From: Gammaproteobacteria bacterium
GTDB taxonomy: Bacteria > Pseudomonadota > Gammaproteobacteria > Magnimaribacterales > TMED112
Length of the DNA: 36,593 nt
Direction of reading: 5' to 3'
NCBI GenBank assembly: GCA_002690945.1
Contig: NZGL01000018.1
Span: 20,256 to 56,848 of the forward strand
Positions 21,240 to 26,630 of this stretch are shown piece after piece. Position numbers and translations under genes: made by a program. The notes below the pieces were generated by a model. That model was not told the origin of the DNA, made no database searches, and saw only the letters and a program-made list of their open reading frames with translations. Position 1 is the stretch's first letter; every line of letters starts with the position of its first letter.

Positions 21240-21324
21240 GGGGATGTGGTGGAATTGGTAGACACGCGTGACTCAAACTCACGTGCCGCAAGGCGTAACG
21301 GTTCAAGTCCGTTCATCCCTACCA
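21240..21324 (+). tRNA. tRNA-Leu (anticodon CAA)
   Basis: An 85-base class II tRNA with a long variable arm. Acceptor GGGGATG pairs with CATCCCT (one G-U), U8 is in place, D-loop GGAATTGGTAGA, anticodon arm CGTGA-CTCAAAC-TCACG with CAA, variable hairpin TGCCGCAAGGCG, T-arm AACGG-TTCAAGT-CCGTT, encoded ACCA. Its last 22 bases are also the antisense of the rluC 3' end. Confidence 0.96.
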
Positions 21325-22214
21325 TCAAAAAAATTATATTTTTCTAATGATTTTACATGGATAGTTTTTTCTCCGTCCATAAAAGTTATCTCTTTTGCGT
21401 GAAGCATTAATCTTTTTGCTGTAGTTTTATTTTCTTTCAGAGCATACTTCTCATCTCCCAGTAATGGATATCCAGCATCAAAACAATGAAATCTGATCTG
21501 ATGGGTTCTTCCTGTGTAAGGTAAAGCTATGAGACTGGTAAAACCCTTATATTTCTTATTAACGGTAAATTTAGTCTTAGATTTTTTACCTGATTCTGTT
21601 TTTTTGACCTTTCTCTCAGATTGATTTGTTTTCTTTACTTCTAGCTCATTCTCAATGACCTTTAAATTTTCTGGCCAAATACCATGAACTACACATTCAT
21701 ATACTTTTTTTACTGATCTTTGCCTGAATTGTTTATGTATGTCTCTTAAAGCAGACATTTTTTTTGCTATTATGAGACATCCGCTGGTGCTTTTGTCGAT
21801 TCTGTGAGCTAAATTGAAGTTTTCCGAGTATTTATAAAGTTTTCTGACTATTTCAATGACACCAAAATTTAGTCCAGATCCACCATGAACAGCATAATTA
21901 GGTGGTTTATTTATTACAACGAATCTATCTGAGTCGTAAATTATAGATTTCTTGATTATCTCCATATGGCTTTCAAGGTTAGGAGACTCTGATAATTGAG
22001 CTTTAATGGTAAATTCTGGATAAGAAATTTTATCTCCCGCAATTAATTTATAATCAGGTTTAGATTTCTTTTGATTTACTTTAATCTTTGCCTTTCTAAT
22101 AGAGCTATATATTTTTGATTTAGGAAGATTCTTCTTAAATTTACTAAATAAAAAGTTATCTAGCCGACGCCCGCAATCATCATCACTTACAAGAAAAAAA
22201 CTAATTTTAATCAT
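21303..22214 (-). CDS. rluC: Ribosomal large subunit pseudouridine synthase (RluC-like)
   Basis: A pseudouridine synthase of the RluA family, probably acting on 23S rRNA. With the start at 22214 (303 residues) it has an N-terminal S4-type RNA-binding domain (RRLDNFLFSKFKKNLPKSKIYSSIR) and the catalytic domain with AHRIDKSTSGCLIIAK (catalytic Asp), KVYECVVHG and PYTGRTHQIRFHC. An in-frame ATG upstream at 22277 would add a hydrophobic 21-residue extension not expected in this family, so I prefer 22214, which also has a -10-like TATATT 10 bases upstream. It is divergent from rne, as in E. coli. The last seven codons run into the antisense of tRNA-Leu. Confidence 0.9.
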   Translation of the reverse strand: MIKISFFLVSDDDCGRRLDNFLFSKFKKNLPKSKIYSSIRKAKIKVNQKKSKPDYKLIAGDKISYPEFTIKAQLSESPNLESHMEIIKKSIIYDSDRFVVINKPPNYAVHGGSGLNFGVIEIVRKLYKYSENFNLAHRIDKSTSGCLIIAKKMSALRDIHKQFRQRSVKKVYECVVHGIWPENLKVIENELEVKKTNQSERKVKKTESGKKSKTKFTVNKKYKGFTSLIALPYTGRTHQIRFHCFDAGYPLLGDEKYALKENKTTAKRLMLHAKEITFMDGEKTIHVKSLEKYNFFDGRDERT

Positions 22215-22404
22215 TTTGCTGTAGAATATACCCACTAAGCTTACAGCTGAAATGAAAAAAATATACAAAGTAAGCAATAGAAAGATAAAAAAAACAAAAT
22301 GATAAGAACAATTAACAAAAGATTAATGGGTTTCAAAAATAGGAAAATTCCTGAAAAACTTCTGATTTAAATATTGTTCTTATCCTTTATTTATAAGGGA
22401 TACA
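22215..22404. promoter_or_regulatory. rluC/rne divergent region with rne leader hairpin
   Basis: This gap of 190 bases is A/T-rich. Towards rne it holds AGGAA-AA-TTCCT (22341-22352) and a stem-loop TATCC..GGATA (22381-22402) whose 3' arm contains the rne Shine-Dalgarno AAGGG (22395-22399), with a loop of A/T. The rluC-side -10-like TATATT is at 22225-22230 (minus). In E. coli the rne leader is the target of RNase E autoregulation. Confidence 0.55.
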
Positions 22405-24345
22405 ATGAAAAAAATACTAATTGATACAAATTCTATTAATGGCAAAAGAAGCGCATTAATAGACGGCGAAAAACTCATAGATTTCGATCTTGAGTTCGAA
22501 GGAAATAATTTCCAAAAAGGAAGCATACATAAAGGTAAAATTACCAAAATTGAAGGTAGTTTAGAGGCAATATTTGTTGAGCTAGGCTCATCAAGACATG
22601 GTTTTCTTCCTTTCAAAGAACTGTCTCCAGAATACTTTGACCAATCTAAATCTGGAATGGAAAGATTTAAGATTAAAGAAGGAGACGATATTGTCATCCA
22701 GATTGAGAAAGAAGAAAGAGTTAATAAAGGTGCAGCTTTATCAACTTATATATCTTTAGCAAGTAGGTTTATAGTTTTAATGACTAATCACCCTAGTGGT
22801 GGTGGAATCTCAAGAAGAATTCATGGAGAAGAAAGGGAGAAGGTAAAAAACCTTCTAGATTCTCTAGAAACTCCAGCTGGCATGAGCTTAATAATTCGTA
22901 CTGCTGGCATAGAAAAACCAATTGAACAATTATCTTGGGATTTAGAGTATCTAAAAAAACTATGGGTAGAAGTTGAATCAGCGATCAAATCCGCTAAAGC
23001 AACACAATTAATTTATGCCGATCAGAGTCTTATACAAAAAAATATACGAGATTATTTTAAAGAAGATATCGGCGAATTAATTGTCGATAATAGCGATGAT
23101 TTTGAGTCCGCAAAAACTTATGCAAATAAAATAATTCCTGATTTGGTAGATAAGATTAAGCTTCATGATGAAGATGTTCCACTTTTTGCAAGTTATGGGA
23201 TTGAATCAAAAATTGAATCTGCTTTTTCTAGGGAAGTAAAACTACGTTCCGGTGGCTCTTTAGTAATCGATACAGGAGAAGCGTTAACTTCAATTGACAT
23301 CAACTCTGCAAAATCAACTAAGGGTTCAGACATTGAAGAAACTGCACTTAAAACTAATCTTGAAGCTGCTTCTGAAATAGGCAAACAAGTTAAGTTACGG
23401 GATCTGGGTGGCTTGATAGTGATTGATTTTATAGATATGGAGGATCCAAAAAGCAACGAAAAAGTAGAAAAAGCTATGTATGCCTCAACCAAACAAGATC
23501 ATGCAAGGATTCAACTCGACAAAATATCAAAATTTGGTTTAATGGAAATGTCACGACAAAGAATTAAGCCTGCCTTGAATGACTTAATGGGTAAGACAGT
23601 ATGGGTAAGATCTGTGGCGTCTGTATGTGAATCTATCTTTCGGCTTATAACTGAGAAATCCATAAATAATAGATCTAGCATTCTTTTGCTTAAGGTTTCA
23701 CCGAATATCGCAAATGAATTATTAAATCGTTATAGATCGAATCTCGATCAAATAGAACAAAAATTTTCTAATAAAATAATGACTTTTATTGATCCTTACA
23801 AACAGAATGATAGTTATACAATTGAAATAAAGAAAAATGCATACTTTGATTATGAAAAGAATATGGAAGAATCATCAAAAGCTTTCCAAAATAGAACTAG
23901 CTATAACTTAAAAGTCCCTAAAAAACGTGCTAAGGCAATGGTTGAAGATGTTGAATTTAGAAATATGCCAAAAGCTAATTCTAATAAAAAGGGGTTGTTA
24001 GATTCATTATTTAATTTTTTCAAGGGAGAAGAGAAGCCTAAAACTAAAAAGCCTAGAAATAGAAGATATAATTCTTCAAAATCAAGGCCAAATGTTAGAA
24101 GGAATATGAAATCTAATAAGCCTAGAAATATACCGCGCAAACCATCTACAAATAACCCACATAAATCAAAAAGTAATGTGAAGGCTGTGCCTAAAAAACA
24201 AAGTGGTAATGTGAAGAACATTGTTAAAAAGACTAAGGAAAAGGTTGTGGATGATAATATTGGTAACAGAATTGAAGAACCAACTAGAAAGCCAACTAGA
24301 AAGCCAGTTACAAGAGCTAAAAATGACCCTAGATCAGGGAGCTAA
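22405..24345 (+). CDS. rne: Ribonuclease E/G family endoribonuclease lacking the zinc-link cysteines
   Basis: This is the main mRNA-decay and RNA-processing endonuclease. The 646 residues include the S1 domain (about 36-118, FQKGSIHKGKITKIEGSLEAIFVELG region), the 5' sensor, and the DNase I-like catalytic domain with Asp298 (SIDINSA) and Asp341 (VIDFIDM), 43 residues apart as in E. coli Asp303/Asp346. After RQRIKPAL (384-391) the CPxC zinc link expected near 400 is missing: the stretch reads MGKTVWVRSVASVCESIF, and Cys408 is the only cysteine in the protein. The tail has an amphipathic KGLLDSLFNFFKG (529-541), a likely membrane anchor, followed by a basic, low-complexity segment of about 100 residues, far shorter than the E. 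coli scaffold. Confidence 0.95.
   Translation: MKKILIDTNSINGKRSALIDGEKLIDFDLEFEGNNFQKGSIHKGKITKIEGSLEAIFVELGSSRHGFLPFKELSPEYFDQSKSGMERFKIKEGDDIVIQIEKEERVNKGAALSTYISLASRFIVLMTNHPSGGGISRRIHGEEREKVKNLLDSLETPAGMSLIIRTAGIEKPIEQLSWDLEYLKKLWVEVESAIKSAKATQLIYADQSLIQKNIRDYFKEDIGELIVDNSDDFESAKTYANKIIPDLVDKIKLHDEDVPLFASYGIESKIESAFSREVKLRSGGSLVIDTGEALTSIDINSAKSTKGSDIEETALKTNLEAASEIGKQVKLRDLGGLIVIDFIDMEDPKSNEKVEKAMYASTKQDHARIQLDKISKFGLMEMSRQRIKPALNDLMGKTVWVRSVASVCESIFRLITEKSINNRSSILLLKVSPNIANELLNRYRSNLDQIEQKFSNKIMTFIDPYKQNDSYTIEIKKNAYFDYEKNMEESSKAFQNRTSYNLKVPKKRAKAMVEDVEFRNMPKANSNKKGLLDSLFNFFKGEEKPKTKKPRNRRYNSSKSRPNVRRNMKSNKPRNIPRKPSTNNPHKSKSNVKAVPKKQSGNVKNIVKKTKEKVVDDNIGNRIEEPTRKPTRKPVTRAKNDPRSGS
24280..24303 (+). 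repeat. Two tandem 12-bp copies in the rne tail
   Basis: CCAACTAGAAAG occurs twice in a row (24280-24291, 24292-24303), encoding PTRKPTRKP near the RNase E C-terminus. It is a minor slippage-type repeat in a low-complexity basic tail. Confidence 0.7.
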
Positions 24346-25129
24346 TAGCTTTTTTGATTAGCTGATTTGATAGAGATGGTTCTGGAGGTATTTTGGGAAG
24401 ATCATTAGGTTTGAACCAAGATGCCTCTAAAATTTCATTTTCGTCTATTTGAACATCTCTAGATATTGCTTCTGCTTGAAAGGCCATCATTAATTGATTT
24501 GGAAAAGGCCAGGATTGGCTGCCAACATAATTGATGTTATTTATTTTAAGGCCAACTTCTTCAAATACTTCTCTTTCAACACATTCTTCTAGAGTTTCAC
24601 CTAGATCGACAAAACCAGCAATTGCAGTATACAAAGTCCTTATTTCGCTATTGTGCCTCACTAGCAAGATTTCAGTTCCATGCGTCAATATAACTAAGAT
24701 ACATGGTGACATTTTTGGGTAGTATTCTCTGGGACAACTATCACAAAATTTAGACAGATCATCTCGTATTTCACTCAGCTTATTTCCTGTTCTCGAACAA
24801 TAGTTTTGTTTATAAATCCAATCAAATAACTGGAATGATCTACTAACGATCATTAAGGACTCTTCATTTAGATATGGGTATAACTCTCTCTTACTTAAGT
24901 AAATTAGATCTTCATTATTATTATTTAATGCTCCTGTAAGAAAAACTGAATTACTTTCGACTTTAAAAATCTCAAATACTTTATCTTCTATATGGCTATT
25001 TAGATTATTGTGTATGAAACTTTTCTCTTTTTTATTAAAGAGTATCTTCTTGCTCTCGTTAATACTTACAATTAAATCATTTTCTTTAGGTGTTTGTTTT
25101 GTTGAAAAACTAGAAGTAAATCTTTTCAT
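24329..25129 (-). CDS. nudC: NADH pyrophosphatase / NAD-cap hydrolase NudC
   Basis: A Nudix hydrolase that cleaves NADH and removes NAD caps from RNA. I start it at 25129 (266 residues); the upstream ATG at 25225 would run through the divergent nhaB start. Residues 111-132 form the zinc-ribbon, but the first pair is Cys111-x2-Thr114 rather than Cys-x2-Cys; the second pair (CDSC, 129-132) is intact. The Nudix box GFVDLGETLEECVEREVFEEVGL is split around 172-194, and SQSWPFPN (204-211) is the NudC signature (usually SQPWPFP). The minus-strand -10-like TATACT (25134-25139) lies 4 bases before the ATG. The 3' end overlaps rne by 17 bases. Confidence 0.9.
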   Translation of the reverse strand: MKRFTSSFSTKQTPKENDLIVSINESKKILFNKKEKSFIHNNLNSHIEDKVFEIFKVESNSVFLTGALNNNNEDLIYLSKRELYPYLNEESLMIVSRSFQLFDWIYKQNYCSRTGNKLSEIRDDLSKFCDSCPREYYPKMSPCILVILTHGTEILLVRHNSEIRTLYTAIAGFVDLGETLEECVEREVFEEVGLKINNINYVGSQSWPFPNQLMMAFQAEAISRDVQIDENEILEASWFKPNDLPKIPPEPSLSNQLIKKAISSLI

Positions 25130-25133
25130 TGTT

Positions 25134-25141
25134 AGTATAAT
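25134..25141. promoter_or_regulatory. Overlapping divergent -10 elements of nudC and nhaB
   Basis: On the plus strand TATAAT (25136-25141) points to nhaB; on the minus strand TATACT (25134-25139) points to nudC. The two hexamers share four bases, so only one RNA polymerase could open this DNA at a time. Confidence 0.45.
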
Positions 25142-25160
25142 GTAAACGTTTAAAAGAGAA

Positions 25161-26630
25161 TTGGTTAGTACATTATTTAAAAGTTTCTTAGGGAATGCTC
25201 CAGATTGGTATAAATGGAGCATCATTGGTTTTCTTTTGTTGAACCCCTTCCTCTACTTTGGTCTTACTGATTTAGGTTATGACAGTGGTTTTATCATAGG
25301 GTGGCTACTTCTTTTGCAATTTATATATACCCTTATATTCTCAATACAATGTTACCCTCTTCAACCTGGTGGTTTGTTAGCATTACAGGTTCTATTATTA
25401 GACTTGACTCGACCAGATGATGTAATGCATGAAATTGAAGAAAGTCTTGGAGTCCTCTTATTGCTTATCTATATGGTTTCAGCAATTTTCTTTATGAAAG
25501 ATTTGTTAATGGTAATTTTTACAAAATTACTTAAAACAATAAGGTCTAAAACTCTCTTATCTTTATTTTTTGTGATCTCAGCAGCTTTTTTATCTGCCTT
25601 TTTAGATGCACTTACGGTAACAGCTGTATTAATAAGTGTGACTCTAGGTTTTTATAAAATATTTGAAAAGAATTTTAAAGAAAATAGAATTTCAGAATCA
25701 GAGTTTGATCAAGGAAAAGCGTTTTTAAGAGACATCATCATGCATGGTGTAGTTGGCACTGCTTTAGGTGGTGTCTGCACAATAGTAGGTGAACCACAAA
25801 ATTTATTAATAGCTCAAAAAGCAGGATGGGAGTTCATGGAATTCTTTTGGAGAATGGCTCCAGTTACAATGCCAGTACTTTTGTTTGGTTTACTTAGCTG
25901 TGTAATTATTGAAAAACTGAAAATTTTTGGTTACGGAGCGCAATTATCTGACACTTTAAGAAATAAAATCATTGATAATGCAAAAACGGAAGAAGAAAAA
26001 AGGACTGCTTTACAAAAATTACATCTTAATATTGAAGCATTATTGGGTGTAAGTTTAATATTTGCATTGGCATTTCACTTGGCTGAAGTTGGAATAATAG
26101 GATTATTCTTAATGGTTCTTCTAACTTCATTGAAAGGCATTACACAAGAACATCAATTGGGTGGTGCTTTCAAAGAGTCTCTTCCGTTTACCGCTTTATT
26201 GGTAGTTTTCTTCGTAATAGTTGCAGCTATCAAATCACAAGACTTATTTGATCCTGTTACAAGCAGCATCCTGAATGATGGTGTATCACAGGATTTGCAA
26301 GTTACGCTTTTCTTCCTTGCTAATGGTGCCTTGTCTGCCATAAGTGATAATGTCTTTGTTGCTACCGTTTACATGACTGAAATTGAGGATTTTCTTACAA
26401 AAGAACTCATTACTAGAGAACAATTTAATAATTTAGCAGTGGCCATTAATACTGGAACAAATTTGCCTAGTGTTGCTACCCCAAATGGACAGGCTGCATT
26501 TTTATTCCTTTTAACTTCATCTCTTGCTCCTCTTATTGGGCTCTCATATTTAAGGATGGTCTATAAGGCTCTCCCTTATACAATCGTACTTACTTCTGTG
26601 GGTCTTATCGCTGTCATTTACCTCATATGA
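25161..26630 (+). CDS. nhaB: Na+/H+ antiporter NhaB
   Basis: An inner-membrane sodium/proton antiporter for pH and Na+ homeostasis, of 489 residues with about 12 membrane segments. It matches NhaB throughout: FLGNAPDWYKW near the start, QCYPLQPGGLLALQ, AAFLSAFLDALTVTAVLISV, GTALGGVCTIVGEPQNLLIA and INTGTNLPSVATPNGQAAFL. I accept the TTG start at 25161 because alignment with the E. coli start (FLGQSPDWYK at about residue 13) leaves only a few residues before it, an in-frame stop (TAA) lies 16 bases upstream and no ATG precedes the conserved block. It overlaps dusA by 4 bases (ATGA). Confidence 0.95.
   Translation: MVSTLFKSFLGNAPDWYKWSIIGFLLLNPFLYFGLTDLGYDSGFIIGWLLLLQFIYTLIFSIQCYPLQPGGLLALQVLLLDLTRPDDVMHEIEESLGVLLLLIYMVSAIFFMKDLLMVIFTKLLKTIRSKTLLSLFFVISAAFLSAFLDALTVTAVLISVTLGFYKIFEKNFKENRISESEFDQGKAFLRDIIMHGVVGTALGGVCTIVGEPQNLLIAQKAGWEFMEFFWRMAPVTMPVLLFGLLSCVIIEKLKIFGYGAQLSDTLRNKIIDNAKTEEEKRTALQKLHLNIEALLGVSLIFALAFHLAEVGIIGLFLMVLLTSLKGITQEHQLGGAFKESLPFTALLVVFFVIVAAIKSQDLFDPVTSSILNDGVSQDLQVTLFFLANGALSAISDNVFVATVYMTEIEDFLTKELITREQFNNLAVAINTGTNLPSVATPNGQAAFLFLLTSSLAPLIGLSYLRMVYKALPYTIVLTSVGLIAVIYLI

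Follow-up and report, generated by a model that had tools for sequence, protein, structure and literature searches.

The window is a 36,593-nucleotide stretch of a SAR86 (Magnimaribacterales) genome, a draft in 29 contigs that is 79% complete; SAR86 cluster bacterium AG-349-I13 is among its close relatives from named collections. Its rne gene encodes RNase E in the wide sense (Table 1). The protein scores 429.9 bits against TIGR00757, the Rne/Rng catalytic-domain model (curated cut-off 325.95), 309 bits against Pfam RNase_E_G and 41 bits against PF20833, the RNase E/G small or 'thioredoxin-like' domain (cut-off 26.8); a Pfam search also detects an S1 domain, and E. coli RNase E is the closest relative of known structure (E 3e-131). 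We assign the protein to RNase E because the RNase G equivalog model PRK11712 stays far under its cut-off (265.4 of 594 bits) and because the gene has the divergent rluC neighbour of E. coli MG1655. The NCBIfam RNase E equivalog PRK10811 scores 517 of the 908 bits of its cut-off and covers residues 1–467 alone, indicating that an E. coli-like scaffold is absent.

Around the gene, an Rfam search of the upstream region found no rne 5′ element, and a tRNA-Leu (CAA; 21240–21324, + strand) overlaps the opposite-strand rluC reading frame at its 3′ end. Downstream lies a convergent gene for a NudC-like NAD diphosphatase (24329–25225, − strand), which overlaps rne by 17 bases. Its product has three of four zinc-ribbon cysteines (CSRT..CDSC) and gives no match to the ribbon model; among the four SAR86 families considered here (f1 to f4, the window belonging to f1), that model matches NudC in several f2 and f4 genomes and in some f1 genomes. 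The rne gene itself appears damaged in two relatives, by an in-frame TAA in one (L014, G012) and by a broken C-terminal part in the other (L017, G002).

Table 1 Features of the rne locus, in window coordinates.
Feature	Coordinates	Strand	Evidence or remark
rluC	21303..22277	-	Divergent from rne, as at the E. coli MG1655 locus
rne, RNase E of the SAR86 genome, 646 aa, without Zn-link	22405..24345	+	TIGR00757, PF10150, E. coli RNase E match
Large (catalytic) domain, residues 1–385: RNase H, S1, 5′-sensor and DNase I subdomains	22405..23559	+	DNase I part of AF2 model against 6x2d, rmsd 1.4
Catalytic Asp298 (E. coli D303)	23296..23298	+	
Catalytic Asp341 (E. coli D346)	23425..23427	+	
Shortened linker, residues 391–403, LNDLMGKTVWVRS, in place of Zn-link CPRCSGTG	23575..23613	+	pLDDT about 35 at 391–400; pN/pS 0.03
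Small domain, residues 404–480, with sole cysteine Cys408	23614..23844	+	PF20833; confident in AF2 model; pN/pS 0.06
C-terminal tail, residues 481–646, basic, predicted disordered	23845..24342	+	pLDDT < 50; pN/pS 0.19
Amphipathic helix 529–541, KGLLDSLFNFFKG, candidate membrane-targeting segment	23989..24027	+	Position conserved; low-confidence model helix 531–539

With E. coli MG1655 rne as the residue ruler of the alignment, the active site is intact. The E. coli catalytic residues D303/N305/D346 correspond to D298/N300/D341 and are invariant in all aligned rows, so that both catalytic aspartates named in a preliminary description of the sequence are in place. The 5′-sensor pair R169/T170 is R165/T166 here (Arg/Thr invariant in the alignment), and the S1 residues F57, F67 and K112 are F57, F67 and K108.

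The Zn-link is described as a conserved motif on which the tetramer and the full activity of E. coli RNase E depend. The window protein lacks the CPxCxGxG signature of the canonical Zn-linked tetrameric enzyme: RQRIKPAL is followed by RQRIKPALNDLMGKTVWVRSVASVCESIF, just as the preliminary description quoted it, and no CPxC stands at this point or anywhere else in the protein, whose only cysteine in 646 residues is, as also described there, Cys408. E. coli residues 395–421 (27 residues, including C404PRC407SGTG) align to 20 residues in f1, which bears out the reported shortening of the block and indicates that the motif was deleted and not moved. Cys408, conserved in f1 only, is neither a remnant of the CPxC nor half of a CxxC; it sits in the first helix of the small domain (model helix 404–421). 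A cysteine metal site elsewhere in the protein was rejected, given the single cysteine of the window protein and the lack of any in several f2 relatives. A non-cysteine site may exist in f3, where the linker contains a histidine (YDIEH).

The segment equivalent to E. coli 395–421 has a length that is fixed within each SAR86 family, at 20 residues in f1, 21 in f3 and 15 in both f2 and f4. Elsewhere the usual length is 27 residues, shared by 45 of 46 typical Gammaproteobacteria (the exception has 28), 9/9 betaproteobacteria and 7/7 alphaproteobacteria measured. The SAR86 linkers carry conserved aromatic or bulky residues, namely Trp400 in f1, RWTQD in f2 and f4, and YDIEHV in f3.

Beyond the small domain, the tail is far shorter than the enteric scaffold, as had been noted (646 residues in all versus 1,061 in E. 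coli), and the amphipathic helix proposed for residues 529–541 lies exactly there; each of the four SAR86 families has a comparable helix in a comparable position. In most f1 proteins the segment is found 146 residues past SRQR, and most f2, f3 and f4 members have one like it 134–148 residues past that motif. The helical moment of the window segment was reached by 27 of 200 shuffled tails and taken alone is not unusual; the conserved position is the better argument for a candidate membrane-targeting helix.

Loss of the Zn-link is order-wide in SAR86. CxxC is absent from all of the approximately 56 SAR86 RNase E sequences that we read directly, which span the four families. The gene was found in 154 of the 203 SAR86 genomes surveyed, including 40/40 of the good ones. 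Among those 154, each genome has a single rne, split genes apart, and a second RNase E/G was not found, barring one contaminant contig of the window's own genome; the same contig (C22 of G000) is the only full match to the Zn-link model. Some f3 genomes do score 26–31 bits against this model, at least as high as the most divergent true motifs, but among the matches listed all of these low f3 hits fall 6–7 codons short, and the motif's cysteines are missing from all 16 of the f3 sequences that we read.

In the other Pseudomonadota surveyed the motif is nearly universal. In a comparison set of 202 Gammaproteobacteria, each 85% complete or more, from which the window's own genome was left out, the C..C pair is kept in 194 of the 195 non-SAR86 genomes with the gene, as judged by model score with low scorers read individually. 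Three Gammaproteobacteria that are 86–99% complete (G131, G143 and G234) gave no RNase E/G match to the query. Among other Pseudomonadota, 294 of 298 genomes score strongly for the Zn-link model; the remaining four, whether or not they carry the gene, have congeners that score strongly. The sole exception among the 195 is G179, a reduced gammaproteobacterium with a 1.2-Mb genome, whose RNase E (L172) resembles that of SAR86 in lacking CxxC and has a linker of 19 residues. This linker differs in sequence from those of SAR86, and the G179 branch, although long and uncertain, falls away from SAR86, a placement that makes the G179 loss probably independent.

The one CPxC-type RNase E in the window's genome is a contaminant. 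Contig C22 (16.3 kb; L003) encodes an RNase E with CPHC in the gene order amidase–rne–M48, as in alphaproteobacterial loci, and its product is placed inside the alphaproteobacterial clade with full support. This type of RNase E is absent from all 60 SAR86 relatives examined, and the contamination estimate for the genome (2.3%) is consistent with C22 being foreign.

In the large-domain tree, SAR86 sequences form two firm clades, f1 with f3 and f2 with f4. The free tree leaves these clades apart, and a tree that unites SAR86 has a log-likelihood 8.9 better (p-AU 0.71). This pattern agrees with the SAR86 species phylogeny, in which four families fall in two pairs (PMC11582366); f1 would correspond to CHAB-I-7, an assignment drawn partly from branch length. 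A single loss predating the divergence of the families, with each main branch having its own linker type, would be the simplest history, although two separate losses within SAR86 may have occurred.

The altered junction is a maintained variant and not a decaying one. In close pairs within f1, for some of which synonymous sites are close to saturation, pN/pS is 0.06 for the large domain, 0.03 for the linker, 0.06 for the small domain and 0.19 for the tail; the CPxC-free linker and the small domain are therefore as constrained as the catalytic core. Within SAR86 families, identity is 0.80–0.85 in the small domain and 0.78–0.86 in the large domain, whereas across other Gammaproteobacteria the small domain (0.53) trails the large domain (0.71). 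At a large-domain identity of 0.70–0.85, the small domain reaches 0.75–0.82 in SAR86 and 0.54–0.62 in other Gammaproteobacteria, a comparison in which the pairs are not independent. Between SAR86 families, small-domain identity drops to 0.25–0.35, below expectation, f2–f4 excepted. Our reading of these figures is that the small domain would have been rebuilt early and strongly constrained thereafter.

The window's family also differs in the groove for structured RNA, whose residues have been defined for E. coli RNase E (PMC9841416). At E. coli positions 268, 270, 433 and 488, f1 has Ser, Gly, Asn and Ile/Val, each in 15/15 sequences, and the 5′-sensor residue Gly124 is replaced by Ser in f1 only. 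These groove residues are mostly kept in f2, f3 and f4, so that replacement is limited to f1. Two of the f1 residues, 268 Ser and 433 Asn, are the same as in an eight-fold E. coli groove mutant that fails to cleave a tRNA precursor (PMC9841416). With these residues replaced, substrate choice may differ in f1.

How would such an enzyme assemble? The principal dimer of the E. coli enzyme is held mainly by DNase I–DNase I contacts and dimers join through the small domains; both isologous interfaces consist of hydrophobic protein–protein contacts, and the zinc is common to two protomers at the junction (PMC2631609). We think it fairly probable, from the sequence comparisons, that SAR86 makes a zinc-free RNase E from which this clasp has been deleted and that assembles through its DNase I and small-domain contacts with no need of the metal. 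The CPxCxGxG clasp between the large and small domains has given way to a shorter linker, fixed in length and sequence and to all appearance free of metal; two protomers would still pair through their DNase I subdomains, and dimers through their small domains. The new linker would pack at the former zinc position through Trp400 in f1 and the Trp of RWTQD in f2 and f4, and the aromatic or bulky residues of each linker could pack on the two-fold axis. Several lines of evidence lead us to infer this mode of assembly, the packing of the linker and activity in the absence of zinc. With one RNase E/G per SAR86 genome, the variant without the Zn-link has to do the work, and its position as the sole such enzyme of the cell, together with strong selection, makes protein contacts the most likely means of holding the junction. 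A tetramer that is held together by artificial means is active even without the Zn-link (PMC12510024). Against this reading stand the divergence of the small domain between SAR86 families and the AF2 monomer, in which the large and small domains are confident and the linker is not (pLDDT about 35 at 391–400). A Foldseek search with this model ranks whole chains of E. coli RNase E first (best full-length chain, TM 0.67) at an rmsd of 14–17, a value at which the model is not informative on the relative orientation of the domains.

A real alternative, which we regard as rather unlikely, is that the tetramer has been lost, leaving a DNase I-linked dimer, or a monomer, of lower activity in which RNA binding is the only remaining task of the small domain. 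The preliminary description had likewise allowed for a different mode of assembly or a working dimer. When the Zn-link of the E. coli enzyme is mutated or deleted, tetramers do not form and activity is strongly lowered (PMC2631609), and the small domain contributes to the RNA groove (PMC9841416), so the constraint on this domain could reflect RNA binding. That same constraint speaks against an enzyme whose assembly stops at the DNase I dimer, and in f1 the small-domain groove residues are gone (K433N, R488I/V) while the domain remains tightly constrained, a pattern more in keeping with a role in assembly than in RNA binding.

Neutral erosion, in which a dispensable feature drifted away without replacement in a streamlined, fast-evolving order, seems improbable. 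SAR86 does combine small genomes with a fast clock (PMC11582366), and the reduced genome of G179 has also lost the motif. However, within each family the linker is fixed in both length and sequence, and linker pN/pS is 0.03. The motif is kept in other genomes of approximately 0.9–1.3 Mb (for example G412, G430, G541 and G531, as well as G191, read directly), so loss as an automatic result of a small genome is not supported.

Less probable still is zinc economy, the removal of structural zinc sites by a lineage of surface seawater, where zinc is scarce. The surface-ocean lifestyle and the incomplete ribbon of the neighbouring NudC would fit this account, but the ClpX zinc domain is retained in 20 of 21 good SAR86 genomes, MetRS and TGT of the same window retain their zinc ligands, and several f2 and f4 genomes keep the NudC ribbon; the first three proteins in particular leave general zinc avoidance unsupported. 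An artefact of misassembly, frameshift or contamination, a concern raised by the draft state of the window's genome and by the second RNase E on C22, can practically be dismissed, because all four SAR86 families lack the motif, single-contig genomes included, no other genome restores CPxC, and C22 is alphaproteobacterial by gene order and tree placement.

A broader proposal joins the two sets of changes: a metal-free junction would keep the tetramer without zinc and f1 would have given up the structured-RNA groove, altering both assembly and substrate recognition. We put this forward tentatively, as a combination more doubtful than the zinc-free assembly itself. If true, RNA decay in a common ocean lineage depends on a rebuilt RNase E. 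Abundant in the ocean, the SAR86 order as a whole depends on one RNase E/G that lacks the link, which indicates that the Zn-link is replaceable, and the SAR86 linkers offer natural material for asking what the tetramer is for. In the library searched, neither RNase E of SAR86 nor Zn-link loss in this group was the subject of any paper found. The closed genome of a SAR86 isolate is available (PMC11582366), making the question approachable in a living member of the order.

SAR86 RNase E is a known enzyme in a variant form shared by the whole clade. It resembles the catalytic half of E. coli RNase E (2BX2, 2VMK) in the D/N/D triad, the 5′-sensor Arg/Thr, the S1, DNase I and small domains, the candidate membrane-type helix and the rluC neighbour; the window protein differs in having no Zn-link, a linker 7 residues shorter, a tail about 420 residues shorter and several substituted groove residues. 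E. coli RNase G shares the catalytic fold and the absence of a long scaffold tail, but it keeps C404/C407 (PMC9841416), and the window gene order is of the rne type. Cyanobacterial RNase E likewise has oligomer parts reduced relative to E. coli, although by the reverse loss, with the Zn-link kept and the small domain absent (PMC10989914). Caulobacter RNase E reportedly binds no zinc in vitro (PMC12510024), yet it retains the CxxC cysteines, whereas SAR86 has lost the cysteines together with their loop.
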